Origin: Balneolaceae bacterium
GTDB lineage: Bacteria > Bacteroidota > Rhodothermia > Balneolales > Balneolaceae
Assembly: GCA_009711805.1 (NCBI GenBank)
Contig: VEMX01000028.1
Location: forward strand, 1 to 59,306
DNA: 59,306 nucleotides
Direction: 5' to 3'
Position 1 is the first letter of the stretch. Each line of letters opens with the position of its first letter. The notes under the pieces are model-generated. The model saw only the letters and a list, made by a program, of their open reading frames with translations. It was not told the origin of the DNA and did no database searches. This document shows positions 3,420 to 24,410 of this stretch, piece after piece. Both the position numbers and the translations under genes were made by a program.

Positions 3420-4426
3420 GAATTATCGTAACCGGAGGAGCCGGTTTTATTGGTTCCAACTTAATTTTAAGACTATTCGAACAACACCCTGACTGGGAGA
3501 TCTATAACATAGACAAGCTAACCTATGCCTCTGATCCATCTTATTTGAACGCCTACCGAGATTCGGAACGCTATCATTTTAAGAAAGTGGACCTGGTGAA
3601 CAGGGAAGAGGTACAGGATGTGGTAAAGAACTTTAAGCCACAGGGAGTATTTCACCTCGCAGCAGAATCTCATGTTGATAATTCTATTAAAGGTCCCGAG
3701 CCATTCATTCAGTCGAATGTAGTGGGCACGTTTAACATTTTGGAAGAGTGCCGCCAGCTGTGGATGCAAGATGAAGAAGATTGGAAGAACAACCGGTTTC
3801 TCCATGTTTCAACCGATGAGGTATATGGAGAATTAGGAGACGAAGGCTATTTTAAAGAAGATACTCCTTACGCTCCAAACTCACCCTATTCTGCCTCCAA
3901 GGCGGGAAGTGATATGATTATTCGTTCTTATTATCACACCTTTGGGATGAATGTGGTTACCACCAACTGTTCAAATAATTATGGCCCCCATCAGCATGAC
4001 GAAAAACTGATACCTACGGTGATACGAAGTGCAATGAACCATGACAATATACCCGTATATGGCAAAGGTGAGAATGTTAGAGATTGGTTGTTTGTGCTGG
4101 ATCACTGTGATGCCATGGATGTAGTATTCAACAAGGGAAAAGCCGGTGAGAACTATAATATTGGTGGAAACAACGAATGGAAGAATATTGATTTGGTACG
4201 GTCGATCTGTGATATTCTGAATGAAGAAATAGGGAATGGACCCAATGGCGATTATAAAAACCTGATCAGTTTTGTTACAGACCGCCTCGGCCACGACTTC
4301 CGCTATGCTATAGATGCATCTAAGATTAAAAAGGAACTGGGATGGGAACCCTCACAGGATTTTGACGGAATGCTCCGTAAGACCATTTTGTGGTATGTTG
4401 ATAAATATAAATCAGCTTCAACTTGA
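3416..4426 (+). CDS. rmlB: dTDP-glucose 4,6-dehydratase
   Basis: Converts dTDP-glucose to dTDP-4-keto-6-deoxyglucose with bound NAD. The NAD site GGAGFIGSN is at residues 7-15. HLAAESHVDNSI (about 80-91), HVSTDEVYGELG (about 130-141, catalytic Asp-Glu pair) and YSASKAGSD (about 158-166, YxxxK) are all present. The 336-residue length is typical. It is the last gene of the rhamnose operon. An 86-bp A+T-rich gap without an obvious terminator follows before the EVE-domain gene. Confidence 0.95.
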   Translation: MRIIVTGGAGFIGSNLILRLFEQHPDWEIYNIDKLTYASDPSYLNAYRDSERYHFKKVDLVNREEVQDVVKNFKPQGVFHLAAESHVDNSIKGPEPFIQSNVVGTFNILEECRQLWMQDEEDWKNNRFLHVSTDEVYGELGDEGYFKEDTPYAPNSPYSASKAGSDMIIRSYYHTFGMNVVTTNCSNNYGPHQHDEKLIPTVIRSAMNHDNIPVYGKGENVRDWLFVLDHCDAMDVVFNKGKAGENYNIGGNNEWKNIDLVRSICDILNEEIGNGPNGDYKNLISFVTDRLGHDFRYAIDASKIKKELGWEPSQDFDGMLRKTILWYVDKYKSAST

Positions 4427-4512
4427 GGAAGTTAAAATAAAAAGTTTTAAACGCAGGTTATTCTGCCTAATTTTCATTTTAATATTGAATCCTTAATTCA
4501 AAAGAAAGCATA

Positions 4513-4986
4513 ATGAGTGACAGACAGTACTGGTTAATGAAATCTGAACCGGATGAATACAGCATTGATGATCTTGAACGAGATGGTGTTGAGCCCTGGG
4601 ACGGAATACGAAACTATGAAGCCCGGAATAATATGCGCGACAAAATGAATGTGGGAGATGGTATACTGTTTTATCATTCACGCATTTCTCCGCCCGAAAT
4701 TGTGGGAACTATGGAAGTGGCCAGCGAACCATATCCCGACCCCACCCAGTTTGATCCGGATTCCAAGTATTTTGATGAAAAGAGTAGCGAAGAAGATCCC
4801 CGATGGAAGCTGGTGGATGTTAAATTTGTACAGAAATTTGACGAGCCGGTAAGCCGAACGGCTATGAAGGAAGAGCCGGCATTAGAGGAAATGGTGATTT
4901 TTAAACGCAGAAGGTTGTCGATTACTCCTGTTACCGAGGCCGAATGGAAGAAGATTCATGAAATGGCCGGAGCAGAGGTTAAGTAA
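4513..4986 (+). CDS. EVE-domain protein
   Basis: A 157-residue single-domain protein of the EVE (PUA-like) family, whose members bind modified bases in DNA or RNA. It opens with YWLMKSEPDEYSIDDL, the canonical EVE start. WDGIRNYEARNNMRD (about 29-43) forms the binding-pocket block, and GDGILFYHS (about 48-56) follows. The family includes human THYN1. The substrate here is unknown. It is probably transcribed on its own or as a tail of the rml operon, and a hairpin follows its stop. Confidence 0.9.
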   Translation: MSDRQYWLMKSEPDEYSIDDLERDGVEPWDGIRNYEARNNMRDKMNVGDGILFYHSRISPPEIVGTMEVASEPYPDPTQFDPDSKYFDEKSSEEDPRWKLVDVKFVQKFDEPVSRTAMKEEPALEEMVIFKRRRLSITPVTEAEWKKIHEMAGAEVK

Positions 4987-5184: not shown

Positions 5185-6399
5185 ATGTCTCAGTCCCTGA
5201 AAGAAGTTCAGCTTCGTACCAAAGGAATATTACCAGTTCAAAAACTTAAACTGCTTCACGAACTGGGAATTATTACATCTGACCCGGATCATCCTATACA
5301 AGAAAATCAGTTTCAACCTAACTCAATTGACCTGCGTTTGGGCAAAAAAGCCTACCGTGTACGCTGCAGCTTTTTACCTGAGAATGAGACTGTACAGGCA
5401 AAAGTAGATCGTTTGGAGCAGTATTCTTTCTCTATTGAAGATGGAGCCGTACTGGAACAGAATTGTGTATACATTATTCCGTTGCTTGAAGAACTTAGGT
5501 TACCTGAATCCAACAAAAGCATCCAAAAAGGATTGTTTAATGGTACAGAAGAAGCTACGGATGTAAAGTTAGGATCGATTGAGAATTTATCAGCAAAAGC
5601 CAATCCCAAGAGTTCTACAGGGCGATTGGATGTGTTTACCAGGGTGATAACTGACTACTCGCACCGCTTTGAAGAAGTGACGCCTGGCTATGAGGGTAAT
5701 TTATACCTGGAAGTAGTACCTAAATCATTTTCCATCAAAGTACAAACCGGGCAGCGGTTAAACCAGCTGAGAGTACGCCATGGTTTTGAAGTGCTTTCCG
5801 ATCAGGATTTATTGCGCATTCACGCTTCCGATCCTTTGCTTTTCAATGAAGAGCATAATCCCGTTTCTATGGAAAAGATAAAAGTAAACCAGGGGTTGTT
5901 CATGAGTGTACAGCTGAAGGGGAAAGAGGGAGAAGTTATAGGCTATAAAGCCAAGAAACATAATAATTACATAGACCTGCGAAATATAGATCATTATGAA
6001 GTGAATGAGTTCTGGGAACCCATTTATGCACGTAAAGAGGATCAGTTTATTCTGGAACCTGAAGCATTCTATATTTTTGCCTCCAAAGAACGGATTCGTG
6101 TACCGGCCCATCTTGCCTGTGAAATGATGGCCTATGATACTGGCTCCGGGGAACTGCGTACCCATTATGCGGGTTTCTTTGACAGTGGATTTGGCGGATC
6201 AGCTAAAGATAAAGGAGCGCGAGCGGTACTCGAGGTTCGCTCACACGATGTGCCTTTCATGATTGAAGATGGACAAACACTTTTTAGCATGCAATTTGAG
6301 CCAAACGCTGAACACCCCGATTTTGTGTATGGTGAAGAAATAGACAGTAATTATCAGGGACAGGAACTCAGACTTGGGAAGCACTTTAAAACACCATGA
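5185..6399 (+). CDS. dcd: Double-domain dCTP deaminase / dUTPase-family protein
   Basis: A 404-residue protein of the dCTP deaminase/dUTPase superfamily, about twice the size of ordinary Dcd. The first half has QPNSIDLRLG (about 45-54), the family's substrate-binding start, and SSTGRLDVFTRV (about 143-154). The second half repeats a beta-barrel with NNYIDLR, GFGGSAKDKGARAVLEVRSH (about 333-352) and GQTLFSMQFE. This architecture is known from alphaproteobacterial proteins annotated as 2'-deoxycytidine 5'-triphosphate deaminase. A role in dUTP supply or pyrimidine salvage is inferred. Its stop overlaps the next start (ATGA). Confidence 0.8.
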   Translation: MSQSLKEVQLRTKGILPVQKLKLLHELGIITSDPDHPIQENQFQPNSIDLRLGKKAYRVRCSFLPENETVQAKVDRLEQYSFSIEDGAVLEQNCVYIIPLLEELRLPESNKSIQKGLFNGTEEATDVKLGSIENLSAKANPKSSTGRLDVFTRVITDYSHRFEEVTPGYEGNLYLEVVPKSFSIKVQTGQRLNQLRVRHGFEVLSDQDLLRIHASDPLLFNEEHNPVSMEKIKVNQGLFMSVQLKGKEGEVIGYKAKKHNNYIDLRNIDHYEVNEFWEPIYARKEDQFILEPEAFYIFASKERIRVPAHLACEMMAYDTGSGELRTHYAGFFDSGFGGSAKDKGARAVLEVRSHDVPFMIEDGQTLFSMQFEPNAEHPDFVYGEEIDSNYQGQELRLGKHFKTP

Positions 6400-6614: not shown

Positions 6615-7300
6615 ATGTTTTTTATACAGAGTCCGATCACGGCATTCAACAGCAGTTTTATCTAGAAGGACAGGAAGCACGGCATGCAGCTAAAGCACTT
6701 CGCCTGCGGGAAGGAGATGAAGTATATGCCACGGACGGGAAGGGGCGTAGATTAAAAGGAACCGTTACGGCAATTTCAAAACAGCGAGTGGTTGCCTCAA
6801 CAACAGAAATTGAAGAAATACCCCGGCCCAGTCCTGGCATAACGCTGGCCATGGGCATTATAAAGAAAAGGGATCGCTTAGAGTTTGCCGTAGAAAAAGC
6901 AGTGGAATTAGGGGTATCTGAAATAGCACTGTTTGTCTCGGACCATACCATAAAAACCAACGTTCGGGAAGACCGGCTCCATAATATTGTTTTGAGTGCA
7001 GTAAAGCAGAGTCTCAGGGTATGGCTGCCACAAGTGAATATATATGATGCGCTGGATAATGTTTTAGCAGAGTACAACCAGCATCATAAACTGATGGCTC
7101 ATGAAAAAACCACTCAATCGTTCCAGAACAAAATGCGAACTGAAGATGAATTACTGCTTATGGTTGGTCCTGAAGGGGGCTTTTCGGATCGGGAGGTTCA
7201 ACTAGCCGGGGAAGCCGGGAGCGAGCTGGTTTCGTTGGGAAAATACCGTTTGAGAGCAGAAACGGCAGCAGTCACTTTTTTAGCGCGTATATTGTCATGA
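6611..7300 (+). CDS. rsmE: 16S rRNA (uracil-1498-N3)-methyltransferase
   Basis: SPOUT-class methyltransferase that modifies U1498 of 16S rRNA. The N-terminal PUA-like part has HAAKALRLREGDEVYATDGKG split over residues 25-45. The knotted C-terminal part has AVEKAVELGVSEI (about 96-108) and the SAM-binding GPEGGFSDREV (about 189-199), ending with LRAETAAV. Length (229) is slightly short but complete. It is the third member of the coupled cluster with dcd and the BFD-like gene. Its own stop overlaps a further ATG. Confidence 0.93.
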   Translation: MNVFYTESDHGIQQQFYLEGQEARHAAKALRLREGDEVYATDGKGRRLKGTVTAISKQRVVASTTEIEEIPRPSPGITLAMGIIKKRDRLEFAVEKAVELGVSEIALFVSDHTIKTNVREDRLHNIVLSAVKQSLRVWLPQVNIYDALDNVLAEYNQHHKLMAHEKTTQSFQNKMRTEDELLLMVGPEGGFSDREVQLAGEAGSELVSLGKYRLRAETAAVTFLARILS

Positions 7301-7404
7301 GTCCGGCCCGTATTGTTACCACAGGTTTTCCTGTGCCCTGGGTGATCGGTGGATTAACCCGAATTATTCACGAATGGATGCAAAATGGCGATCTATATAC
7401 TTGA
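7297..7404 (+). pseudogene. Short frame coupled to rsmE, interrupted by the MITE
   Basis: An ATG overlaps the rsmE stop in the same ATGA arrangement used upstream in this operon. It opens a frame beginning MSPARIVTTGFPVPW. After 19 codons it enters the TTAA-bounded repeat and stops 35 residues in. Removing the repeat and one TTAA gives only about 23 codons, so either a longer gene was lost or the frame was never functional. Confidence 0.25.
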
Positions 7405-7589
7405 ATATATTACCGTTGAATTGCTTTATGTAATAGCCCAATTTTGAGGTACGGATTAGGCGGCGAAATTTCCCCGTACGCTGCGTTCAAGTGAAAATTG
7501 GGGTACTCAGGGTACCACAATACCCTTCCGTTCCCATTTCCACTTCGCCTTGCGTACGATTAAATTTCTTGGTGAATAATCCGGGTTAA
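7354..7589. mobile_element. TTAA-bounded MITE-like element, copy 1 (236 bp)
   Basis: The element begins TTAA CCCGAATTATTCACGAA and ends TTGGTGAATAATCCGGG TTAA. The inner 17-bp ends are inverted repeats with two mismatches. The outer TTAA looks like a target duplication. A second copy of the same length at 15047-15282 differs at about 4 positions. The element has no coding capacity, so it would need a transposase in trans. It sits just downstream of rsmE. Confidence 0.75.
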
Positions 7590-7737: not shown

Positions 7738-8283
7738 TCAAGCTATCACACGATCTTGTTTCCAGGCATCTTTTATGTTGGCGCTTGCAGCTTCAGCTAT
7801 ATGGCTGATATCCAGTTCTAATGCTACTGTTTGAGGTATCACCATTCTGGTTTTAGCAATCAGCTTGATGACAGCACGCAGTCTTTGCTGGGTAAAATCA
7901 GCCAGTCTGTCTTCACCTTCTCCCAAGGCTATAGTATGTAGCGTTGTATATCCCGAAGCGATCATATTCAAAACAGTAAAATTGTCTCGAAGCATTTTGG
8001 ATACTGGATCTTTCCGGTTGGTTTCAATTACACTTGCTATAGTACCTGTAACAGATGCCATTCGTTCTTTAATATTTACTGATAATGAATCTTCCAAAAA
8101 TTCATTCATATCTTCAAGCTCCTTAAGCTGTTCTGTTAACTCGATGTCGATATTATGGAGCAGTTCCACTGATCGGTTATCGCTTAATTTAGTTGAAGTT
8201 TTTTGCGATTTGATGGTATTAAGAGTGTGCTTTACTAACAGATACATGTCGGTTGTGTATTCTCTTAACTTCTTTTCTTCCAT
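7738..8283 (-). CDS. Helical protein of unknown function
   Basis: A 181-residue protein without signal peptide or membrane segment, predicted mostly helical from its Leu/Ile/Ala heptad-like spacing. It has an acidic first half (ELTEQLKELEDMNEFLEDSL) and a second half containing MIASGYTTLHTIALGEGEDR. The overall look is that of a four-helix (ferritin-like) bundle, but no metal-binding ExxH pair is clear, so no function is assigned. It is transcribed toward rsmE and ends beside the shared terminator. The gene upstream (lycopene cyclase) points the same way, 66 bp away. Confidence 0.6.
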   Translation of the reverse strand: MEEKKLREYTTDMYLLVKHTLNTIKSQKTSTKLSDNRSVELLHNIDIELTEQLKELEDMNEFLEDSLSVNIKERMASVTGTIASVIETNRKDPVSKMLRDNFTVLNMIASGYTTLHTIALGEGEDRLADFTQQRLRAVIKLIAKTRMVIPQTVALELDISHIAEAASANIKDAWKQDRVIA

Positions 8284-8349
8284 GACGAGCCTCCTCTTTA
8301 TTATTAGCTGTGTATCTAATCTAAATGGAATAGATCTGCACTTCGTTCA

Positions 8350-9513
8350 TTAAAAAAAATTCTTCCATATTGCCTTAAGAAAAGGACGAGATGGAACAGA
8401 CGACATGATCTTTAGGTCTTGGAAAAAAGAAGAATCTTCCCCAAGAAAACGTAGTATTTCATCCAGCTTGTTATTCTTAAAAAGGGATTTAAAAAGAAGC
8501 AGACTTTCTTCGCTGGAAGTAGAGAGAATGTGCAGCAGCCACAGGTCGTAATACCGGAATCTTTTAGGTGATTGAGGAGGTGGGACAAGCCGGTTGTCGG
8601 TAATGAGTGATTGGGATAGTTGTTGTGTATAATCCTGAATACGAAGAAAGGTGTAGCCTGTAGTTGGTTTTGTTTGTCCTCCCACGGTACCCAGGTTTAC
8701 AATATTGGTTCCATCATTATAAAAAGGGATATGGGGCCGGATTTCCATGGGAATCTCACCATATTCCTGACGCTTTACTTCATAGTCTTTTTCATCCAGC
8801 TTGAAGTTTTGTTGCAGGTATAGGGCAATTCGCTGCTTGTATTCTGTCTTGGCTAATACTGACTTAGAGAAAACAGTAAACTCAATTAAGGCATGTTGTG
8901 GACTGAAAGGCAGCACATATATAAAACCAATCCCTGGGCTGAAATTATTTTCAAAGTCCATGAGGGTAAATGTTTCCGGATCAAAGATTCGGTTATTCGT
9001 TTTTATTTCATATCCCAGGAAATGTTGAACGAGTGAGTATTCTACCTCGGAAGGATCCAATTGTTGTGGAGGTTTGATACTTTGAAAGATATAGTCTGCT
9101 AAGTAATGCTTCCCGTTCTTGGTGAGTAATATGGCTTTATCTTTATTGGATGAAAGATCCAGAATATTCTCTTCTGCCAGGTGAAAGTTCTTATGCTGGC
9201 GTAATTCTTTGAGTACGCATTCTTTAAAATCAGAGCTTCGGATACAGTAGTAGTTGAACTCATTCAAGTTTTGAAAAGTCTCATAATCTGAAACTGATAC
9301 CCGTGCTTTTTCCCATTTTCTATACAGAATATGTAAAAAGGGTGGTGGCTGATTGGTCCAGAAACACCAGGTTTTGTTGTTAACCGGTGCAAAAGTAGAA
9401 TCTACTACTAACACTTGTTTGTCATATCCACCCTTAGCCAGGTACCAGGCCAGGCTTAGTCCCGATAGACCTCCCCCGGCTATAATAATATCGTATGTGG
9501 CTTCAATCTTCAT
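8350..9513 (-). CDS. crtY: Lycopene cyclase
   Basis: Cyclises the ends of lycopene to beta-ionone rings in carotenoid synthesis. FAD/NAD-binding protein of 387 residues. The dinucleotide site AGGGLSGLSLAWYL is at residues 12-25. NKTWCFWT (about 46-53) is the conserved block of CrtY-type cyclases. VNLGTVGGQTKPTTGYTF (about 272-289) is the second family motif. The ATG overlaps the end of the nitrilase gene by 11 bp, so the two are likely one transcript. No other crt gene is in the window, but the enzyme predicts a pigmented organism. Confidence 0.88.
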   Translation of the reverse strand: MKIEATYDIIIAGGGLSGLSLAWYLAKGGYDKQVLVVDSTFAPVNNKTWCFWTNQPPPFLHILYRKWEKARVSVSDYETFQNLNEFNYYCIRSSDFKECVLKELRQHKNFHLAEENILDLSSNKDKAILLTKNGKHYLADYIFQSIKPPQQLDPSEVEYSLVQHFLGYEIKTNNRIFDPETFTLMDFENNFSPGIGFIYVLPFSPQHALIEFTVFSKSVLAKTEYKQRIALYLQQNFKLDEKDYEVKRQEYGEIPMEIRPHIPFYNDGTNIVNLGTVGGQTKPTTGYTFLRIQDYTQQLSQSLITDNRLVPPPQSPKRFRYYDLWLLHILSTSSEESLLLFKSLFKNNKLDEILRFLGEDSSFFQDLKIMSSVPSRPFLKAIWKNFF

Positions 9514-11594: not shown

Positions 11595-12103
11595 TTACGT
11601 ACCGGTGTGGGTTATAGATGAAAGGTAAAAAATATAAGACATCGGAAGTTGGTGCAGTATGTGAGAGTTTTTCATCTAAAATCCTTTCAGATTGTATTCC
11701 TGATAAGGTGTTTTGAAAGAGCAATGAGTGTAGTTGAACCCACCCCGGGGTTAGCTGGCTGATACAAAGCCCCCGGTCTTCACGGGGGTTACTCATAGTT
11801 GTACTGTTCCGCATTGGGATGGGGTTATACTTAGGATAGGGGAGGTAGCCAGATAATAGGGTTTCGGTTCTTTTTCTATTTCCGTTGCAAATAGGACCAG
11901 TAATGTTGATCAGATCTTATACCGGGCGCATACGATGGTGTCCTTTCTTGGTTTTTAGGAATAGAAATCTGATTGGGAACCTTAACTATCTTTAATTTTT
12001 ATTCTGTATAATAGCCAGCAGAGATAGCCGGGATTTACTCATTTGTAACATAAACGGGATCATGTCGTCCCGTTTAACATCACTTTAATTAAATACCGTT
12101 GTT
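11595..12103. other. 509-bp spacer with two hairpins
   Basis: No credible gene. A hairpin CCCCCG/CGGGGG (11770-11788) without a T-run lies between ltaE and the NTF2-like gene. A perfect 9-bp inverted repeat TAAACGGGA / TCCCGTTTA (12051-12076, 8-nt loop) lies 27 bp before the NTF2-like start. It could be an operator or a 5'-UTR hairpin. Confidence 0.5.
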
Positions 12104-12572: not shown

Positions 12573-13742
12573 CTATATTAAGGCTTGGTAAAGTACATCT
12601 ACAATACGTTCGATCTGCTCCTTACTGATAATCAGTGGGGGTAGGAATCGGACCACGGTACCGTGAGCCGCATTGGCCAGAATATTCTGCTCAAACATCT
12701 TGTCTACAACCGGCCGGGCTGGTTTATCCAGTTCTACACCCAGCATGAGTCCCATGCCGCGAATATCTTTTACTGAAGGGATGTCTTCCAGCTTTTCTCT
12801 GAGCAAATTCATCATAAATGCTCCTTTTTCCGCAGCCTGTTCAACGATGTTTTCCTTTTCGATAGTGTCAAGAGCGGCACAGGCTACGTGGCACGTGAAT
12901 GGATTTCCACCAAAAGTGGTACCGTGATCTCCCATGTTAAGGGCAGAGGCTACATCATCCTTAGCCAGGATAGCACCAACAGGAATGCCCCCTGCTAATG
13001 CCTTGGCTGAGGCAACGATGTCGGGCATCACATCAAAGTGCTGGTACGCATAAAACTTACCGGTTCGTCCAACACCGCATTGGATCTCATCAATAATCAT
13101 GAGGATATTCAACTCATTACATAATTGGCGGGTTTTGCGGATGAAATCAGCATCAATCACATTCACTCCGCCCGAACCCTGTATGGTTTCAAAAGTAATG
13201 GCAATGGTGTCTTCATCGGCCGCAGCTTTAAGAGCTTCAAAATCGTTAAAGGGGACTTGTTCAAAACCTTCGGGCATAGGATCAAACCCCTGCCGGTAGC
13301 GGGGCATTCCCATGGCGATAGTAGTGACGGAACGCCCGTGAAAGCCTTCACTCAGAGAAATGATATTCCCTGTCTTGCCCTGTTTTTCTCCCCATTTACG
13401 AGCCAGTTTTACACAGCCTTCCATAGCTTCAACACCGCTGTTGCAAAAGAACACCCGGTCGAGACCGGAGACTTTAACCAGTTTCTCAGCCAGCCGGCTT
13501 TGAGGTTCGCTATAGAAGAAATTGGAGGCATGCAGCAATTTTTCTGATTGTTCCTGTATGGCAGCTACTATGTTGGGGTGGCAGTGACCGAGATTGTTTA
13601 CGGCAAGTCCGCCAAAAGCGTCCAGGTATTCATTGCCCTCCGTATCCCATACTTTGGCACCTTTCCCATGCGAAAGGGTTACAGGCAGGCGATTATATAC
13701 CTGGAAATGATATTGCTTTTCAAGCTGCTGTGTTTTGTCCAT
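12573..13742 (-). CDS. argD: Acetylornithine aminotransferase family
   Basis: Class III PLP aminotransferase of arginine synthesis. Markers are LDAFGGLAVNNLGHCHP (about 41-57), FFCNSGVEAMEG (about 94-105), the IIDEIQCGVGRTG block (about 216-228) and the PLP lysine in SAKALAGGIP (Lys247). Length 389 is standard. Ornithine, N-succinyl or LysW-linked substrates cannot be told apart by eye. No other arg gene is next to it. An inverted pair of REP units lies directly upstream, within its promoter region. Confidence 0.85.
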   Translation of the reverse strand: MDKTQQLEKQYHFQVYNRLPVTLSHGKGAKVWDTEGNEYLDAFGGLAVNNLGHCHPNIVAAIQEQSEKLLHASNFFYSEPQSRLAEKLVKVSGLDRVFFCNSGVEAMEGCVKLARKWGEKQGKTGNIISLSEGFHGRSVTTIAMGMPRYRQGFDPMPEGFEQVPFNDFEALKAAADEDTIAITFETIQGSGGVNVIDADFIRKTRQLCNELNILMIIDEIQCGVGRTGKFYAYQHFDVMPDIVASAKALAGGIPVGAILAKDDVASALNMGDHGTTFGGNPFTCHVACAALDTIEKENIVEQAAEKGAFMMNLLREKLEDIPSVKDIRGMGLMLGVELDKPARPVVDKMFEQNILANAAHGTVVRFLPPLIISKEQIERIVDVLYQALI

Positions 13743-13775: not shown

Positions 13776-13903
13776 GGAACCGGAGGTTCCGGCAGGTATT
13801 CCGAACGGGACGTTCGGAACGAGTACTATTGGAGAATCCTTGCCTAAGAATTCTCGTTCCCAACCTCAGGTTGGGAATGCCTGCCTGAACCTCTGGTTCA
13901 AAA
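13776..13903. repeat. REP doublet: two inverted double-hairpin units
   Basis: Unit 1 (13776-13824, inverted) contains GGAACC-GGA-GGTTCC and TTCCGAACG-GGA-CGTTCGGAA. Unit 2 (13852-13903) contains TTCCCAACC-TCA-GGTTGGGAA and TGAACC-TCT-GGTTCA. Every stem is perfect with a 3-nt loop. The units share the order CTCG, 9-bp stem, CCTGCC linker, 6-bp stem. Stem bases that differ between units differ on both arms, so pairing is kept. A third unit is at 18901-18950. Confidence 0.75.
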
Positions 13904-14335
13904 TAGTTAATAAGGTCTCAATAAAAATTGTAAGTAACAGTCCCCTAATCATTCTAACTAAAAAACGAAAAGCAGATACTATGGGACGAAGCCAGTATAG
14001 AATTTACAAAGAGTACTGCCCATATTTTATAATTATTACAATAAAAGACGGATTGCCGCTCTTGTGCTATCCAACATGAGCAAAAAACCGTTTTAAATAG
14101 TTTCACTTTTCTTCAGGCCGGGCGAAAGGTACTTATTTATGGATATGTAATCATGGAAAATCATTTTCGTGTTATTTTCCTTCGCTACCAATGTCTGTAT
14201 TGCCCTCCGCGCATCCTCTTGGGAGTAACACAGTGGGGGCGGTTCCAGTCAATCATCTGTCTATTGCCAGGCAGGGATTTCTCTGAGGTCAAAAGATTGA
14301 AGGTTCTCTCAGCTGATGTTCTTGATTCGTTAGTT
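13904..14335. other. 432-bp spacer, nothing recognised
   Basis: Between the REP doublet and the AlkZ-related gene. It holds open frames without family resemblance or plausible starts. No RNA gene or further repeat was seen. Confidence 0.4.
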
Positions 14336-15046: not shown

Positions 15047-15282
15047 TTAACCCGAATTATTCACGAATGGATGCAAAATGGCGATCTATATACTTGAATA
15101 TATTATCGGTGAATTGCTTTATGTAATAGCCCAATTTTGAGGTACGGATTAGGCGGCGAAATTTCCCCGTACGCTGCGTTCAAGTGAAAATCGGGGTACT
15201 CAGGGTACCACAGTACCCTTCCGTTCCCATTTCCACTTCGCCTTGCGTACGATTAAATTTCTTGGTGAATAATCCGGGTTAA
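15047..15282. mobile_element. TTAA-bounded MITE-like element, copy 2 (236 bp)
   Basis: Same length and orientation as copy 1 at 7354-7589, with the same TTAA borders and 17-bp inverted ends. By eye only about four substitutions separate the copies, which suggests recent movement. It lies between the AlkZ-related gene and a broken hydrolase. Confidence 0.75.
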
Positions 15283-15354: not shown

Positions 15355-15894
15355 CTAATTTTTATCCGAACTCATGTTATCTAACCATTTAACCAATTCG
15401 GTCCAGCTTTCTATTGGAAATTTCGCATGTGCTGCTCCTTCGAGAACGATAAACTCTTTTCTCTGTCCTGGGATGTCATCATAAAGTTCTCGGGCGGCGT
15501 CTATTTCAAATAATTCATCTCTGTCGCCTACTCCTACCAAAACGGGCATATTTAAATCCGGGGGAAGCGTCAGGTCGTCCATATCCAGCATCCGAAAAAA
15601 CCGGAGTGTATACCTGAAATTAAAAAGCGGGTCATCGAGGCCAACCATACCTTCGCGGTAGTATTCTACAACCTGGTGTGTGGGGCGAAACAGGGAGCTC
15701 GCCAGGATTCGTATTTTTTGGAAAAAAGATGGAGAAGTTCTGGCTCCGGGACGTGTCCTGTATGCTCCTGAAAGCAACATTAAGCCGGATATCTCATCCG
15801 GAATATCAATGGTTGTATAGAATACTATGAAGCTTAATGTAGGTTTGGAGTGTAGAACGACGAAACAATCTCCCCTCGCGAGGAGCCCAAACAT
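15355..15894 (-). pseudogene. Alpha/beta hydrolase remnant lacking the nucleophile half
   Basis: The C-terminal part is a clear alpha/beta-hydrolase. It has ISGLMLLSGAYRTRPG, then PVLVGVGDRDELFE supplying the acid residue, and EGAAHAKFP supplying the catalytic His. The first 25 or so residues do not resemble the family, and the GxSxG nucleophile elbow is missing. Homology appears to begin near 15810, next to a palindromic repeat (CCTCGCGAGG near 15876). I read it as the 3' half of a gene cut by rearrangement. An open frame remains, but activity is not expected. Confidence 0.65.
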
Positions 15895-16257
15895 TAAGTA
15901 AGGTCCGGTTCAATACCGACGCGGCGATCTCCTAAAATATGCTTAGGATATTTATCAACGCTGATTACATCAGTTGCCATAGACAAGGAGACTGCCACGG
16001 GCTGGTTCGCCGGGCTCACGCATCTCTCGCAGAAGGAGGCTCCATTCGCGATGACTGCTCCACTTACTCTTGGAAATAACATGTGCCTTTCGGCCTGACA
16101 GCTTCAAGTCCGTCTGACCGATGGCTTTATTCGGGCAGCAAAACAGGTCTATTTTTGCCTGTCCATTTTCTGGGTCTTCTTCATCGGTCAGACCGGTGAT
16201 CGGTCAGATCGGGTGCGGGGTGGTTTGTCTTGCCGGCCTCATGTGATGGATACTGTA
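15895..16257. other. Scrambled non-coding segment with ATCGGTCAGA repeats
   Basis: No supportable gene. It contains the 10-mer ATCGGTCAGA twice in direct orientation (16183-16192 and 16199-16208) and once inverted (16113-16122). Fragments resembling the GATC...GATGAC hairpin units lie near 16025-16060. The mixture suggests repeated insertion and deletion just outside the duplicated tex end. Confidence 0.45.
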
Positions 16258-16350
16258 TTAACCGCCAACCAACTTCAACCCAATACGACCTCGTTCGAGA
16301 TCCAAGGTAATGATTTTGAGGCTTATAATATCTCCTACACTCACCACGTC
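16258..16350 (-). pseudogene. Detached duplicate of the tex 3' end (30 codons plus stop)
   Basis: These 93 bases match 18957-19049, the end of tex, with six differences, including an aligned TAA stop. The encoded tail ends in GRIGLKLVGG instead of GRIGLKLVGA, with one internal Glu-to-Lys change. It has the same orientation as tex, so the two form direct repeats around 16351-18956. Homology stops abruptly at both ends. Confidence 0.85.
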
Positions 16351-16627
16351 GGTCTCTTGTACGCTCCAGCGGCTACTGACAATCCGTGCTTAATTTTTCC
16401 TCGCCCAGCCTGGGAGGCCTGCTGTTTTAAGTCTTCGGTAAAGCGAATGTGTTTAATGGCTTGTTGGTTTTTCGGTGGTCCAGGTCCCCGGAGCGAGGAT
16501 AGCAAAGACAATTCCCAAGCTCAACAAGCTCAGATGTGAGTGTTTTTATTTTTAAATACATATATATATATATATATTAAGTAGTCCATTAAGTAATGGG
16601 CAGTATTAAAAATAAACAGGGGATAGT
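16351..16627. other. Cassette leader region with TA microsatellite
   Basis: Lies between the tex fragment and the small cysteine-rich gene. It contains a (TA)8 tract at 16561-16576 and a CATTA-AG-TAATG palindrome just before the gene. A strong Shine-Dalgarno (AGGGG) precedes the ATG at 16628. The minus strand of 16360-16500 has a protein-like open stretch (KHIRFTEDLKQQ) that I cannot assign. Confidence 0.45.
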
Positions 16628-16891
16628 ATGAAATACCTACCTAAGTTCTTTGCTACTCTTTTGGTAGCATTATTAATAATGGTAAATTTTAATATGGAGT
16701 ACCGTTTAAATCCTATTGATATGCAGGTTAGTGTGGATTTAAATACCGTTCAAGCAGAACCATGGGAACCGGATATGAAATTGATGGATGAAACCTGCTG
16801 GGTAAATGGAAGAGCTATAGAAATATGCCGCCATTACCCACCTTGGTATTGCGATGTAGGAGCCCAGGATGCCTGTTCGTCGCAAGAATAA
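16628..16891 (+). CDS. Small secreted cysteine-rich protein (NVEALA-like)
   Basis: An 87-residue protein. Residues 7-20 form a hydrophobic export or anchor helix. A short hydrophilic segment ends in DLNTVQAEP, similar in position to the NVEALA box of Bacteroidota peptides. The C-terminal part has four cysteines, at 57, 67, 75 and 83 (spacing x9, x7, x7), in a Trp/Pro-rich context (CRHYPPWYC). A good Shine-Dalgarno precedes the ATG. It heads a three-gene cassette with a propeller lipoprotein and a thioredoxin-like protein, the company such peptides keep elsewhere. The cysteines suggest two disulfides formed outside the cytoplasm. No function is established. The NVEALA link is a resemblance, not a firm assignment. 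Confidence 0.6.
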   Translation: MKYLPKFFATLLVALLIMVNFNMEYRLNPIDMQVSVDLNTVQAEPWEPDMKLMDETCWVNGRAIEICRHYPPWYCDVGAQDACSSQE

Positions 16892-16903
16892 ATTTATAAG
16901 TCA

Positions 16904-16931
16904 ACCTCTCCGGTAAAAATACTGGAGAGGT
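16904..16931 (+). promoter_or_regulatory. Intercistronic hairpin after the small cysteine-rich gene
   Basis: ACCTCTCC (16904-16911) and GGAGAGGT (16924-16931) form a perfect 8-bp stem with a 12-nt loop. There is no T-run. It lies 12 bp after the peptide gene and 23 bp before the next start. It could protect the peptide mRNA 3' end or partly terminate transcription. Confidence 0.6.
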
Positions 16932-16954
16932 ATTAGTACGAGAGGGGTATAACC

Positions 16955-18163
16955 ATGAAATATGGCATTCTACTGTTATCGGTATTTTTGAGTTATTGTT
17001 CAGCTGAACATCCCAGGGTTGTTGATGACCATGATTCGGAATTGGTTAAAATCACGGTTGATGTTGAAAAAACGGATACCCTAAGAATGTCAGAGTATTT
17101 TTCAAATATCACCTATCATCACCTAAAAACCCCGAATAACGAACCGATTGGCAGAATTTTTAAAATCCTGATTCAGGATAATCATGTGGCATTATATGAT
17201 CGGTCAAAGAAGAGTGTTTGGATATTCACAAAAAGTGGAGAATACGTAAATGAAGTGAAAATACCCCAGGGCAGAGGAGTCGGAGAGTTGGAAAATATTT
17301 CAGATGTATATTTTGACAATGAGAACCGGATTCATGCTTTAGGATCTTTTGAGTTATTGATGCTGGATATGGAGGGTAATTTGATAGAGGAAATTTCATT
17401 AGATTTTTTTGGTTACAGGTTTACCTATTATGAGAATACGGGAAATTATTTTGCTTATTCAGGTACATTTAATACAAGAATCCCTGACCAATTTCAGGGA
17501 TATGACCTGTATAAATTTAATATGAGGGGACAAGTCATAGGCAGTTATATACCCCAGGTTGAAAATAAACTCGGGCTGGATTTTGGTGTGCCAAATAGTT
17601 TCCCAGTTTACAGAGGTGTTTATTATTATTTTCAACATTTAAATGATACGGTATACTACATTGGAGAAAATGATCTTAAACCAGCCTATGTATTTGAGTT
17701 TGGAGATCAAGCTTTGCCAGAAGAAATTTTTGAAAGAAGGAAAAAATATGGCACAGAATTTTGGCAGTGGTCCGATTTTTGGGAAAATGAAATAGACCCT
17801 TATGATTATATTACTCATAAAACAAATTTTGAAGTTACCGATCGATACATACATTCACGACTTGGCTCTGCTGAATCTAATTATATGATATTATACGACC
17901 GAGAGAAAAAAACTACCCACATAGGCAAAGATAAGTTTGTAAACGACATTGATTACGGGCCTTCCCCGTACATTTATTTGAGTTCCGATGAGTCCTTGTA
18001 TTCATACGTTGAAGCAAATGACATGCTGAGACATTTAAATGAGCTTTATAATAATGACCGGGAAAAATATTTCAGCAGAGAGGTGGAACAGTTGAGACGA
18101 ATAGCAGATTCAATGAGGGAAAATAGTAATCCCATTCTTATGCGCTTAGATTTTAACGAATAA
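16955..18163 (+). CDS. 6-bladed beta-propeller lipoprotein
   Basis: A 402-residue exported protein. The signal sequence ends in FLSYC (Cys15), a loose lipobox, so an outer-membrane or periplasmic lipoprotein is likely. The body matches the 6-bladed propeller group common in Bacteroidota: YFSNITYHHLKT, IFKILIQDNHVALYDRSKKSVWIFTKSGEYV (in sections over about 65-100), GRGVGELENISDVYFD (about 102-117), and repeated strand-turn units after that. The C-terminal 60 residues are helical and charged. The role is unknown. It is second in the cassette, followed 12 bp later by the thioredoxin-like gene. Confidence 0.75.
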   Translation: MKYGILLLSVFLSYCSAEHPRVVDDHDSELVKITVDVEKTDTLRMSEYFSNITYHHLKTPNNEPIGRIFKILIQDNHVALYDRSKKSVWIFTKSGEYVNEVKIPQGRGVGELENISDVYFDNENRIHALGSFELLMLDMEGNLIEEISLDFFGYRFTYYENTGNYFAYSGTFNTRIPDQFQGYDLYKFNMRGQVIGSYIPQVENKLGLDFGVPNSFPVYRGVYYYFQHLNDTVYYIGENDLKPAYVFEFGDQALPEEIFERRKKYGTEFWQWSDFWENEIDPYDYITHKTNFEVTDRYIHSRLGSAESNYMILYDREKKTTHIGKDKFVNDIDYGPSPYIYLSSDESLYSYVEANDMLRHLNELYNNDREKYFSREVEQLRRIADSMRENSNPILMRLDFNE

Positions 18164-18175
18164 ACATATCTTAAG

Positions 18176-18799
18176 ATGAAAATATGGAAAAGTAATTTTT
18201 GGATTTTACTTTGTTCTGTACTCGTTCTTTTGAATATATACAGCTTGTATCAAAAAAATGAAATAGCGGAAGGCTTCAATGAGGAATTAAATACTCTTAA
18301 AACTGCATATGAATCAAATTTTCAATCATTATTAAACAGAATGAGAATTCAATTTGATAATGAAGGAATTGTTATAGATAAAGAAACAGAGCTGGTACCA
18401 GACTATGACGAAGGAAAGAAAATTAAACTCAAGGAATTGGTACAGAATAAATGGATGCTTGTTTTAAACTTCTCTGAGATTACTTGTAAGAGCTGTGTTG
18501 AATCAGAAATAGAAAAAATCAAAGAAATTTCTAACGAAATTGGTTCAGAGAATGTATTAATATTGTCAAGTTATGAAAGGAATAGTGATTTATTAATTTT
18601 TAAGAGACTAAATAAATTGAATCTTCCAATTTATAATAGAAAAGGCGAAAACTTAGGATTGCAAATAGATTACAGCAATGCAAACGTTTTTCTTCTAAAC
18701 TCTGCTTCATATAAAACTGAATTATTCTTTATTGCTGATAAAGAGGCTCCAAAACTATCTGAAAAGTACTATTCTACAGTCAAAAGGTATTTTGAATAA
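18176..18799 (+). CDS. Membrane-anchored thioredoxin-like protein (CKSC)
   Basis: A 207-residue protein with one N-terminal membrane helix (about residues 8-24), then a helical stalk and a thioredoxin-like domain facing the periplasm. The redox motif is CKSC (Cys104, Cys107) after the strand WMLVLNFSEIT, where TlpA-type proteins have WCxxC. A later strand (NVFLLNSA) may correspond to the cis-Pro region, but no cis-Pro is obvious. It closes the cassette and is very A+T-rich. Oxidising or reducing the cysteines of the small secreted protein is an attractive inferred job. Confidence 0.65.
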   Translation: MKIWKSNFWILLCSVLVLLNIYSLYQKNEIAEGFNEELNTLKTAYESNFQSLLNRMRIQFDNEGIVIDKETELVPDYDEGKKIKLKELVQNKWMLVLNFSEITCKSCVESEIEKIKEISNEIGSENVLILSSYERNSDLLIFKRLNKLNLPIYNRKGENLGLQIDYSNANVFLLNSASYKTELFFIADKEAPKLSEKYYSTVKRYFE

Positions 18800-18900
18800 A
18801 ATAAAAATTTTAAGTTTATCTGAGTGAAAGTAAAAAATCAAGAATCAGGTACGTACAGATTGTTTGAGGTATTCTCAAGTTAAATCTTTAATCAATAGAA

Positions 18901-18950
18901 ACTCGTTCCCAACCCCGGTTGGTACGCCTGCTTGAACCTCTGGTTCGAAT
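18901..18950 (+). repeat. REP unit, third copy
   Basis: CTCGTTCCCAACC-CC-GGTTGG followed by a CGCCTGCT linker and TTGAACC-TCT-GGTTCGAA. It has the same two-hairpin plan as the doublet at 13776-13903. It lies between the convergent ends of the cassette and tex, where it may act as an RNA end. Confidence 0.65.
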
Positions 18951-18956
18951 GAGTTC

Positions 18957-21137
18957 TTACGCCCCAACCAGCTTCAACCCAATACGACCTCGTTCGAGAT
19001 CCAGGGTAATGATTTCGAGGCTTATAATATCTCCTACACTCACCACGTCATGAGGGTCTTCGATTTTTCGGTTCCCCGCCATGTTGGAGATGTGAAGCAG
19101 TCCGTCTTGTTTAACCCCGATGTCTACAAAGGCCCCAAAGTCCACCACATTTCTAACCGTACCTTCCAGCTTCTGTCCCGTTTTAAGGTCTTCCATCTTC
19201 ATTACATCCGTACGAAGCAGGGGCTTTTGCAGGGATTCCCTGGGATCTCGGCCGGGTTTTTGCAGATTTTCTATTATGAGTTCGAAAGTGGGGACTCCTA
19301 CACCGACCTGCCCGGCCGTCTGCTGAAGATCCATATTGCTAAATTTGGAAGCTATTTTCTTCTTTTCATTAGACAGATTATCGAGGTCGATACCAAAGAG
19401 GTTGCACAATTTTTCGGCCGCTTGATAACTCTCGGGGTGAATGGCCGTGTTATCAAGTGGGTTTTTTGACTCAGGGATACGCATGAATCCTGCGGCTTGC
19501 TGAAAGCGGAATGCCCCCACACCCTCAATGTCTTTGATTTGCTCTCGGTCGATGAAAATCCCTTTATCTTCCCGGCGTTTTACGATGTTTTTGGCTACTT
19601 TTCGCCCCAAGCCTGAGATATGAGAGAGGAGGGGAGCGCTTGCGGTATTTAAATTCACCCCAACTTCATTCACACAACTTTCTACTACATCATCCAGCTT
19701 CCCGGATAGTTGGTTTTGATTTACATCATGCTGGTATAAACCAACCCCAATCGATTTTGGATCTATTTTAACCAGTTCTGCAAGAGGATCCTGCACCCGC
19801 CGGGCGATAGAGATATTTCCACGTTGTGCGGCATCCAGCTTCGGGAATTCATCGCGGGCTACTTTAGATGCAGAGTACACTGAAGCCCCAGCTTCATTCA
19901 CAATCAGGTAGTGTAATTCTTCCTTCGGTTTTTTCTCTTTTCTTTTTTGAAGAAAGGCTGCAACAATTTGTTCGGTTTCACGACTGGCAGTGCCATTCCC
20001 TATGGCAATTAAGGTGACACCATATTTATCAATGAGTTTTTCAAAAACGGCTTCTGCCTCAGCAACCTGTTTGCGTGGAGGGGTAGGGTACACGGTGGTA
20101 CCTTCAAGGTACTTCCCGGTTTCATCCACTACAGCCACTTTACAGCCGGAGCGGAAAGCCGGGTCAATACCCATGACAATCTTTTTGTCGAGGGGTGGTT
20201 GCATGAGCAAATTACTCAGGTTGGTCGCAAAGGTTTCTATGGCGTGGGCATCAGCTCTGTCGGTGAGCTCGTTTCTCAATTCCCGTTCAAGCGAGGGGAA
20301 GAGAAGACGTTTGTACGCATCTTCAACGGCATCCTGCAGGTACTCGGTAAAAATACTCCGGTCATTTTTAATGACTACATCATCGATATTTTCGAGCGTA
20401 CGTTCTTCCCACAATTCTGCATTAACAAAGAGGATGTTTTCTCTTTCACCGCGGTTTATGGCCAAAATCTGATATGGTTTTAACCGGTTTACCTTGGCTG
20501 AAAAATCATAATAGTCTTCAAAATTAGTACGGTTTTTAACAGTTGGGTTCTTTTTGGTTGAAATAGTGGCGTGGTTGGCAAAGACTTTACGGAGCATATT
20601 CCGGACTTCCAGGCTTTCATTAATCCATTCGGCCACAATATCATTGGCACCTGCAAAAGCATCTTCAACAGATTCTACATCCTTTTCGGCATCAATGTAT
20701 TCCCGTGCATATTCCGACGGATCACCTTTTTCAATTTCCTGGTCCCATATCAGTTGAGCAAGAGGTTCCAGCCCTTTTTCTTTGGCTTTGTCGCCCCGTG
20801 TTTTGCGTTTTCTTTTATAGGGGAGATAGATGTCTTCCAGTGTATTGAGGTCGGTGCAGGTTTTTATCTGTTCTTCAAGCTCAGGGGTTAGTTTTTCCTG
20901 TTCCTTAATGCTCTTTAAGATGGTTTCCTTCCTTTTTTCCAGTGTACGCTGGGTATCAAGGGCATCCCGGATGGCACGTATTTGTTCTTCGTCCAGGCCT
21001 CCGGTTGCTTCCTGCCGGTACCTTGCCAGGAAAGGGACGGTAGCGCCATCGTCCAGGAAATCGGCAACAGCTTTTACTTGTTTGGGTGAAAAGGCTAATG
21101 CCTTTGCAATATGGTTAAAAATCTTTGTGTCGCTCAT
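18957..21137 (-). CDS. tex: Tex-family S1 RNA-binding protein
   Basis: A 726-residue transcription accessory protein that binds nucleic acid. The N-terminal helical part has ALAFSPKQVKAVADFLDDGATVPFLARYRQEATGGLDE in sections over residues 12-50. A YqgF/RNase H-like domain starts at MGIDPAFRSGCKVAVVD (about 321-337). Helix-hairpin-helix motifs include LLSHISGLGRKVAKNIV and IEGVGAFRFQQAAGF. A C-terminal S1 domain (about 650-720) contains DFGAFVDIGVKQDGLLHIS. Length is typical. The last 93 bp are duplicated at 16258-16350, so the present 3' end may have been supplied by incoming DNA. Confidence 0.95.
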   Translation of the reverse strand: MSDTKIFNHIAKALAFSPKQVKAVADFLDDGATVPFLARYRQEATGGLDEEQIRAIRDALDTQRTLEKRKETILKSIKEQEKLTPELEEQIKTCTDLNTLEDIYLPYKRKRKTRGDKAKEKGLEPLAQLIWDQEIEKGDPSEYAREYIDAEKDVESVEDAFAGANDIVAEWINESLEVRNMLRKVFANHATISTKKNPTVKNRTNFEDYYDFSAKVNRLKPYQILAINRGERENILFVNAELWEERTLENIDDVVIKNDRSIFTEYLQDAVEDAYKRLLFPSLERELRNELTDRADAHAIETFATNLSNLLMQPPLDKKIVMGIDPAFRSGCKVAVVDETGKYLEGTTVYPTPPRKQVAEAEAVFEKLIDKYGVTLIAIGNGTASRETEQIVAAFLQKRKEKKPKEELHYLIVNEAGASVYSASKVARDEFPKLDAAQRGNISIARRVQDPLAELVKIDPKSIGVGLYQHDVNQNQLSGKLDDVVESCVNEVGVNLNTASAPLLSHISGLGRKVAKNIVKRREDKGIFIDREQIKDIEGVGAFRFQQAAGFMRIPESKNPLDNTAIHPESYQAAEKLCNLFGIDLDNLSNEKKKIASKFSNMDLQQTAGQVGVGVPTFELIIENLQKPGRDPRESLQKPLLRTDVMKMEDLKTGQKLEGTVRNVVDFGAFVDIGVKQDGLLHISNMAGNRKIEDPHDVVSVGDIISLEIITLDLERGRIGLKLVGA

Positions 21138-23434: not shown

Positions 23435-23670
23435 GTATCAGGGAGATCGCGGGTCTGGGCCCGCGATGACAAAATTTTAACTACAAAAAGCCCGTCATCC
23501 CGGTCAAGCCGTAGCGGAGCGGAGGTGCCGAACCGGGATCTCCCTGAAGAGGTTTGGGATGTTGAACAACGGGGTGTTGAGAGTACATTCTTTGTAGCAA
23601 GGAGATCGCGTATTTCCGCATTCGCTACATACGCGATGACAGCCTTTTGTGAGTGCGTTGCTATTTAGGA
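23435..23670. repeat. 236-bp direct repeat, copy A, made of hairpin units
   Basis: Nearly identical to 24094-24330. It is built from units bounded by GGAGAT and ATGAC with a perfect 8-bp stem between, such as ATCGCGGG/CCCGCGAT, ATCCCGGT/ACCGGGAT (inverted) and ATCGCGTA/TACGCGAT. Stem sequences vary but pairing persists. The repeat ends inside the 3' end of the GIY-YIG gene. Confidence 0.8.
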
Positions 23671-24027
23671 AATTCCGCATCTTCGCATTTGCTTCGCCGG
23701 CGATGACTCGTCTTTGTTCAACTCCGGTTGGCCAAGGGTTGAAACCTCATCCCATTGATCAACCATCTTGGGATTAATACTTTTGATAAGCTCGATCTTC
23801 CAGGTTCGTTTCCATTTTTTCACTCTTTTTTCAGCCTGGATGGCTTCGTACATGACAGGAAATTCTTCATAGTACATCAGCTCCCGGATATTATATTTTC
23901 TAGTGAATTTACAACCTTTACCTTTTCTATGGTCATCAACCCTTTTGAGGAGTTGTGAAGTAACCCCGGTATAATAAACCGTACGATGCTTGTTTGATAA
24001 TATGTATAGATAACCTTTTTTGTTCAT
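23665..24027 (-). CDS. GIY-YIG endonuclease-domain protein
   Basis: A 120-residue single-domain nuclease-fold protein of the YhbQ/UPF0213 kind. GYLYILSN and VYYTGVTSQLLKRVDDHRKG (about 5-36) supply the GIY-YIG core and the Arg. AIQAEKRVKKWKR (about 62-74) supplies the catalytic Glu. The last 15-20 residues (ESSPAKQMRRCG) are encoded by repeat hairpin DNA, so the natural C-terminus was altered or extended. The gene lies exactly between two 236-bp direct repeats, in a 1-kb repeat zone. Such stand-alone proteins are often mobile. Function is not known. Confidence 0.8.
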   Translation of the reverse strand: MNKKGYLYILSNKHRTVYYTGVTSQLLKRVDDHRKGKGCKFTRKYNIRELMYYEEFPVMYEAIQAEKRVKKWKRTWKIELIKSINPKMVDQWDEVSTLGQPELNKDESSPAKQMRRCGIS

Positions 24028-24093
24028 TTGCTAAGTAAGAGCGATGAGGATGGAATCCCTTACGGAATTTTTTTCTTGATAATCCACGGTGCT

Positions 24094-24330
24094 GTATCAG
24101 GGAGATCACGGGTCTGGGCCCGCGATGACTAAGCTTTAACTACAAAAAGCCCGTCATCCCGGTCAAGCCGTAGCGGAGCGGAGGTGCCGAACCGGGATCT
24201 CCCTGAAGAGGTTTGGGATGTTGAACAACGGGGTGTTGGAGAGTACATTCTTTGTAGCAAGGAGATCGCGTATTTCCGCATTCGCTACATACGCGATGAC
24301 AGCCTTTTGTGAGTGCGTTGCTATTTAGGA
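24094..24330. repeat. Direct repeat, copy B (237 bp)
   Basis: Matches 23435-23670 with a single-base insertion and few substitutions, and has the same orientation. It is followed by a fourth hairpin unit, ATCCCGCA/TGCGGGAT (about 24330-24367). The pair encloses the GIY-YIG gene. Confidence 0.8.
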
Positions 24331-24410
24331 GATCCCGCATCTCCGTATTCACTCCGTGCGGGATGACGGTCGTTGGAGAGTTTGTTTTAAACCACATCCC
24401 AAACCCATAA

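Follow-up and report, generated by a model that had tools for sequence, protein, structure and literature searches.

Duplicated gene 3' ends around peptide-propeller cassettes point to repeated integrase-free addition of small cassettes to Balneolaceae chromosomes

In a Balneolaceae bacterium with Gracilimonas as its nearest genus, a three-gene cassette coding for an exported cysteine peptide, a beta-propeller protein and a membrane-anchored protein is flanked on one side by the 3' end of tex, the gene for the S1-domain RNA-binding protein Tex, and on the other side by a second, orphan copy of the same gene end. The same geometry around homologous cassettes recurs at two further genes, gltA in the same genome and gcvP in a second genome, and this arrangement points to repeated, integrase-free addition of such cassettes to chromosomes. 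The spread of small variable cassettes between chromosomes without an integrase is normally invisible; orphan gene ends provide a readable scar of arrival which makes the process countable with respect to the genes used, the donors and the frequency of the event. The window, that is the whole stretch of 59,306 bp that was analysed, opens contig C2 of an assembly of 4.08 Mb in 99 contigs (completeness 100%, contamination 0.14%), the sole genome of its genus in the collection.

Intact tex is an open reading frame of 726 aa on the minus strand (18957–21137) with 84–87% amino acid identity to Gracilimonas tex and with the Pfam domains Tex_N, Tex_YqgF, Tex_central_region, HHH_3, HHH_9 and S1 above the cut-off, and the repeat therefore consists of its last 31 codons including the stop codon. 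The right-hand copy is situated inside the intact 3' end (18957–19049, minus strand), while the left-hand orphan copy (16258–16350, minus strand) has kept its stop codon. Alignment confirmed the 93-bp direct repeat with six differences described in the initial annotation, with 87 of 93 bp identical in the same orientation, a similarity far beyond chance (E 1e-33 to 1e-43) that stops sharply at both edges, as the 200-bp stretches next to it gave alignments no better than those of shuffled sequence. Occurrence of the fragment as a dispersed repeat, which the initial annotation had named as evidence against an insertion, was not found, with only these two copies present in the whole 4.08-Mb genome.

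The tex site before insertion can be deduced from the relatives. In Gracilimonas, an unduplicated tex is followed by an aminotransferase gene, the ancestral downstream neighbour of tex (12573–13742, minus strand, in the window), and this adjacency is preserved in most Gracilimonas and in other Balneolaceae. The gap between the two genes is approximately 110–180 bp in several Gracilimonas relatives and up to approximately 1.7 kb in others, compared with an interval of 5.2 kb in this genome; as tex is single and followed by the aminotransferase gene in Gracilimonas, the tex site has been enlarged here. A second tex end was seen in none of the 31 relatives with available downstream sequence (6 kb for most), and equally the related genomes provided no instance of the cassette at this site without a duplicated tex end, so that the site is properly regarded as one of addition, as had been proposed.

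Besides the cassette, the tex-aminotransferase interval, which is a rearrangement hot spot, contains an AlkZ-related gene, a truncated hydrolase, a MITE-like element and a dispersed repeat. The latter abuts the orphan tex end (15863–16241) and occurs in approximately 60 partial copies in the genome, with a core of approximately 160 bp and a longest form of approximately 370 bp, on contigs C30, C22, C39, C48, C14 and C3, with several copies in tandem clusters on C30. The repeat has no Rfam family, and Rfam otherwise retrieved nothing credible; an integron/attC reading based on the clustering on C30 was dropped without a formal attC test, as the repeat looks REP/MITE-like. The alpha/beta hydrolase remnant (15355–15894, minus strand) misses its N-terminal part, covers only positions 88–233 of the 239 positions of the Hydrolase_4 profile and has no intact copy elsewhere in the genome. 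Consisting of repeat and truncated hydrolase, the region left of the orphan end is not simply the native flank of tex. The MITE-like element of 236 bp with 21-bp inverted ends is present at 7354–7589 and 15047–15282 with 98.3% identity. A REP-like palindrome is located directly downstream of tex (18902–18955) with a second copy near the aminotransferase gene (13853–13908); to consider the two copies as an outer target duplication was dropped, as REP-like palindromes of similar kind are found downstream of tex also in relatives. Elsewhere in the window (23435–24367), a small gene, by inspection GIY-YIG-nuclease-like (23665–24027), is situated between the copies of a 274-bp direct repeat (94%).

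The cassette genes, all on the plus strand, span 16628–18799 with a GC content of 33.6%, and the assignment of an A+T-rich cassette exactly between the two copies is upheld for the genes, but the space between the copies also harbours a non-coding spacer of 41.5% GC that separates the orphan end from the cassette genes (16351–16627) and has no match elsewhere in the genome, as well as the REP-like palindrome adjoining tex. The first gene (16628–16891) codes for an 87-aa exported cysteine peptide with a signal-like N-terminus, an LN-[x]-[V/A]-QA-like motif and four conserved cysteines; in an alignment of six homologues, C57, W58, G61, C67, C75, Q80 and C83 are invariant. Neither Pfam (E up to 1) nor NCBIfam provided a family for this peptide. 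We take it to resemble the NVEAL peptide family; the NVEAL Pfam profile gave no match at E up to 1, and the literature searched under NVEAL as the sole family name yielded no paper on such peptides. In most loci examined, homologues of the peptide precede the propeller, which is the product of the second gene (16955–18163), a protein of 402 aa assigned to the six-bladed beta-propellers of the DUF5128 family (PF17170, 99.3 bits against a cut-off of 22.9). Its Cys15 is invariant in ten homologues and the protein is probably a lipoprotein. The AlphaFold model (pLDDT 85) finds its best PDB match in 4raa, Bacteroides fragilis BF0058, with which the propeller shares the family and the predicted fold. 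The third gene (18176–18799) codes for a 207-aa protein with an N-terminal membrane anchor and a CxxC motif (CKSC), thioredoxin-like by inspection only and assigned to no family by Pfam and NCBIfam. A frameshifted homologue of this CxxC protein gene is found 3' of the propeller in genome G016 (L144, G016:C39, ~7951–8610). We infer that the exported cysteine peptide may work with two partners, a propeller lipoprotein at the surface and a thiol-active protein; in any case, attention is drawn to apparently unstudied exported cysteine peptides paired with propeller lipoproteins.

Beyond tex, propeller-homologue loci were each tested for flanking direct repeats. Among the cassette loci surveyed, at least two further gene-end duplications were identified; in both, the displaced end lies beyond the insert and has kept the direction of the gene. 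On contig C35 of the same genome, a DUF5128-peptide cassette is flanked by 359 bp duplicated from the 3' end of gltA (citrate synthase; stop at 10160 in L132, end copy at 5900–6257), a repeat that may be misassembled, being near-identical and longer than a short read. This cassette of 3.8 kb codes for two cysteine peptides, a DUF5128 propeller, a LuxR-type HTH protein and a 248-aa exported protein. In genome G044, a peptide-propeller pair is enclosed in the same manner at gcvP, where approximately 103 bp of the 3' end are duplicated (gcvP stop at 7470 in L143, end copy at 5524–5626). All three cassettes, of approximately 1.8–3.8 kb, are convergent with the duplicated gene and A+T-rich (32–37% GC). 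Beside the orphan gltA end, a fragment of the cysteine-peptide gene of the neighbouring cassette is present (94.9%; L132 (G000:C35), 4370–4609 / 6274–6332), which is a sign of cassette turnover.

The tex and gltA cassettes carry the two strongest PF17170 matches among those listed for this genome, and within the family, approximately three of the 20 loci with the best PF17170 scores show a gene-end duplication. On the other hand, a scan of 564 kb of other tex loci with the same detector did not report any such duplication and, in approximately 1.28 Mb of this genome, reported tex, gltA and one pair on contig C18 only, located at a 151-aa open reading frame and probably spurious; these counts serve as a guide and not as a formal test, since some of the scanned contigs had been chosen for their propellers and tex was the starting case. 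Such recurrence bears on the suspicion that a stray tex end and an unrelated cassette have been joined by chance through dispersed-repeat rearrangements at a repeat-rich hot spot. Although the interval, with its 60-copy repeat, MITE-like element, REP palindromes and truncated hydrolase, is of the kind where this might happen, the recurrence of this geometry around homologous cassettes at gltA and gcvP, versus none in control sequence, makes coincidence very improbable.

The divergence between the gene-end copies is informative with respect to their origin. At gcvP, 12 of 13 codon differences between the orphan and the intact end are synonymous, and in a neutral simulation so few amino acid changes occurred in 0 of 20,000 replicates. 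As the differences are nearly all synonymous, both copies must have been functional in separate lineages until recently, and at least for gcvP, as judged from the codon changes, the copies derive from two functional, diverged lineages. The two tex copies differ by a Glu-to-Lys and an Ala-to-Gly change (GCG/GGT) and by three synonymous codons, a weak excess of synonymous changes (three of five, P = 0.07). The orphan terminates with Gly-Gly as in several relatives, and the intact gene with Gly-Ala; the Lys of the orphan is Glu in the close relatives and is found in none of them. The two tex copies could not be assigned by phylogeny, as they are about equally far from all Gracilimonas, and GC3 as a marker of a foreign end did not discriminate for gcvP or tex. 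The proposal that one of the copies came from a related strain is thus strong for the parallel case of gcvP and weak for tex itself. At gltA, the two copies match fully over the 282 coding bp, and the five differences between them are all confined to the 76 bp of 3' flank. Because of this identity gltA alone shows no second lineage; its near-identity agrees with a close donor or with gene conversion at a later time.

These patterns equally need to be considered for an in-situ origin, in which the insertion would have copied the local tex end, either as a long target-site duplication or through slippage in replication or repair, with subsequent decay of the orphan. Taken alone, tex with its orphan Lys found in no close relative can be accounted for in this way, and so can the near identity at gltA; yet the almost exclusively synonymous differences at gcvP are impossible for a neutrally decaying orphan, and the confinement of all gltA differences to the 3' flank is not as expected for such decay either. 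Furthermore, we know of no transposase that makes target duplications of 93–359 bp. Marks of a transposon or MITE, such as inverted repeats at the ends of the insert or a transposase (Pfam, NCBIfam), were not found. We consider an in-situ origin as quite improbable.

Propeller homologues with 53–24% identity are present in 12 of 92 genomes of the family, including this one, and a sample of 394 genomes of the phylum contained the close propeller subfamily, at E 1e-25, in this family only. Close propeller relatives were not retrieved from the genome_contigs and viral_contigs collections, and phage and plasmid DNA gave no match. In the propeller tree, the window cassette groups with a G044 cassette located beside a transglycosylase-like gene (support 100/98), and the gcvP-site cassette of genome G060 groups with a cassette of genome G063 beside a thymidine-phosphorylase-like gene (support 100/100), the neighbour genes being named by inspection. 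Since the tree is incongruent with the insertion sites, the cassettes change sites. Cassettes at gcvP fall on three separate branches of the tree, the backbone of which is poorly supported, and the gcvP end thus appears to be reused by cassettes. In several genomes of the genus with gcvP-site cassettes, gcvP and its convergent neighbour are adjacent, with no cassette between them. Regulators, by inspection LuxR- or AraC-like, accompany related cassettes.

Elements that integrate into the 3' ends of protein-coding genes are well known from the icd site of Escherichia coli, which is used by e14 and phage 21. As in the three cases described here, the gene is restored by a substitute 3' end and the displaced end remains at the far side; however, icd-type elements carry an integrase with one fixed target per integrase, neither of which is found here. 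No integrase was detected among the open reading frames and family matches of the tex cassette and its surroundings, nor among the open reading frames of the gltA and gcvP cassettes as read by eye. The leaning of the initial annotation towards an integrative element is borne out only in part: a classical element with its own gene-specific integrase is not supported, given cassettes that have no integrase, three target genes, no visible common core and the fact that most related cassettes sit elsewhere without a repeat. A wider version, in which small satellites or decayed elements with an att site and a replacement gene end depended on an integrase located elsewhere or since lost, has in our view a rather low but appreciable probability. 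Site-specific integration also leaves a gene-end duplication with synonymous divergence, the first 33 bp on the junction side do not differ between the two tex copies, in a core-like manner, and cassettes from three lineages occupy the gcvP 3' end. Against such integration stand the lack of an integrase in any of the three cassettes and the use of three unrelated targets with repeats of 93, approximately 103 and 359 bp and no shared core or motif at the junctions by inspection. Moreover, gcvP is without a long identical core and the orphan gltA end runs into a broken cysteine-peptide gene, an untidy joint. That the peptide-propeller cassettes constitute an enzyme-less mobile class, moved by an undescribed trans-acting recombinase that targets convergently oriented housekeeping genes at their 3' ends and substitutes the end each time, is in our view unlikely.

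We give about an even chance to the horizontal import of a linked segment of gene 3' end and cassette that is added to the chromosome by homologous recombination within the gene end. In the case of tex, which would have arisen as gcvP did, the donor would be a related Balneolaceae lineage that provided its tex 3' end and the cassette on one DNA segment, and recombination limited to the 3' end of tex would add this segment to the chromosome. The likeliest route would be trimming of the incoming fragment, its circularisation and a subsequent single crossover; a close variant would be homology-anchored illegitimate joining at the far end. Either way, the product would be an intact tex with one 3' end, the cassette and an orphan copy of the other end, and neither route would need an integrase. 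This model would cover the addition of the linked segment and not the first arrival of a cassette beside each gene end. Variable repeat lengths, the absence of a shared core and many insertions without repeat are predicted by the model and all are seen, with the repeat-less related cassettes allowed rather than demanded. The alternative of homologous replacement put forward in the initial annotation is met halfway: homologous recombination fits better than site-specific integration, yet the event is additive, with duplication, and not a replacement.

Such products have been obtained experimentally. In E. coli supplied with DNA homologous only to the end of lacZ, duplications were found in 56 of 60 selected clones, with 109–950 bp of the lacZ end duplicated in the 14 sequenced clones; these very rare products were attributed to trimming of the DNA, its circularisation and a single crossover (PMC3240628). 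The lacZ-end experiment and the cassettes described here have in common the partial duplication of a 3' end in direct orientation around non-homologous DNA without an integrase, and a variable repeat length (109–950 bp versus 93–359 bp; PMC3240628). However, the former involved a laboratory plasmid under selection, whereas the cassettes considered here are natural, occupy three genes in two genera and have a presumed donor and route. Homology-facilitated illegitimate recombination during transformation of Streptococcus pneumoniae, Acinetobacter baylyi and Pseudomonas stutzeri equally combines a homologous anchor on one side with an illegitimate joint on the other; it usually deletes recipient DNA, though, rather than duplicating it (PMC3240628).

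Repeats of other kinds were encountered at related loci. Tandem propeller paralogues in L184 and the tandem cassettes in L202 are not gene-end duplications; in L202 (G013:C2, 6475–12238), two tandem peptide-propeller cassettes are each preceded by an AraC-like regulator gene, the regulator genes being direct repeats of each other over 329 bp (92%). Contig C121 of genome G064 (L148) has identical ends of 141 bp (1–141 / 4630–4770) that are also present on contig C21, and partial glycosyltransferase copies occur on contigs C127, C130 and C21 of this genome; to view C121 as a circle was abandoned, as an assembly-graph repeat is the better explanation. In L204 (G010:C23), a 102-bp direct repeat (89%; 7085–7186 / 11790–11890), not a gene end, flanks a regulator-peptide-propeller cassette together with a transposase-like fragment.
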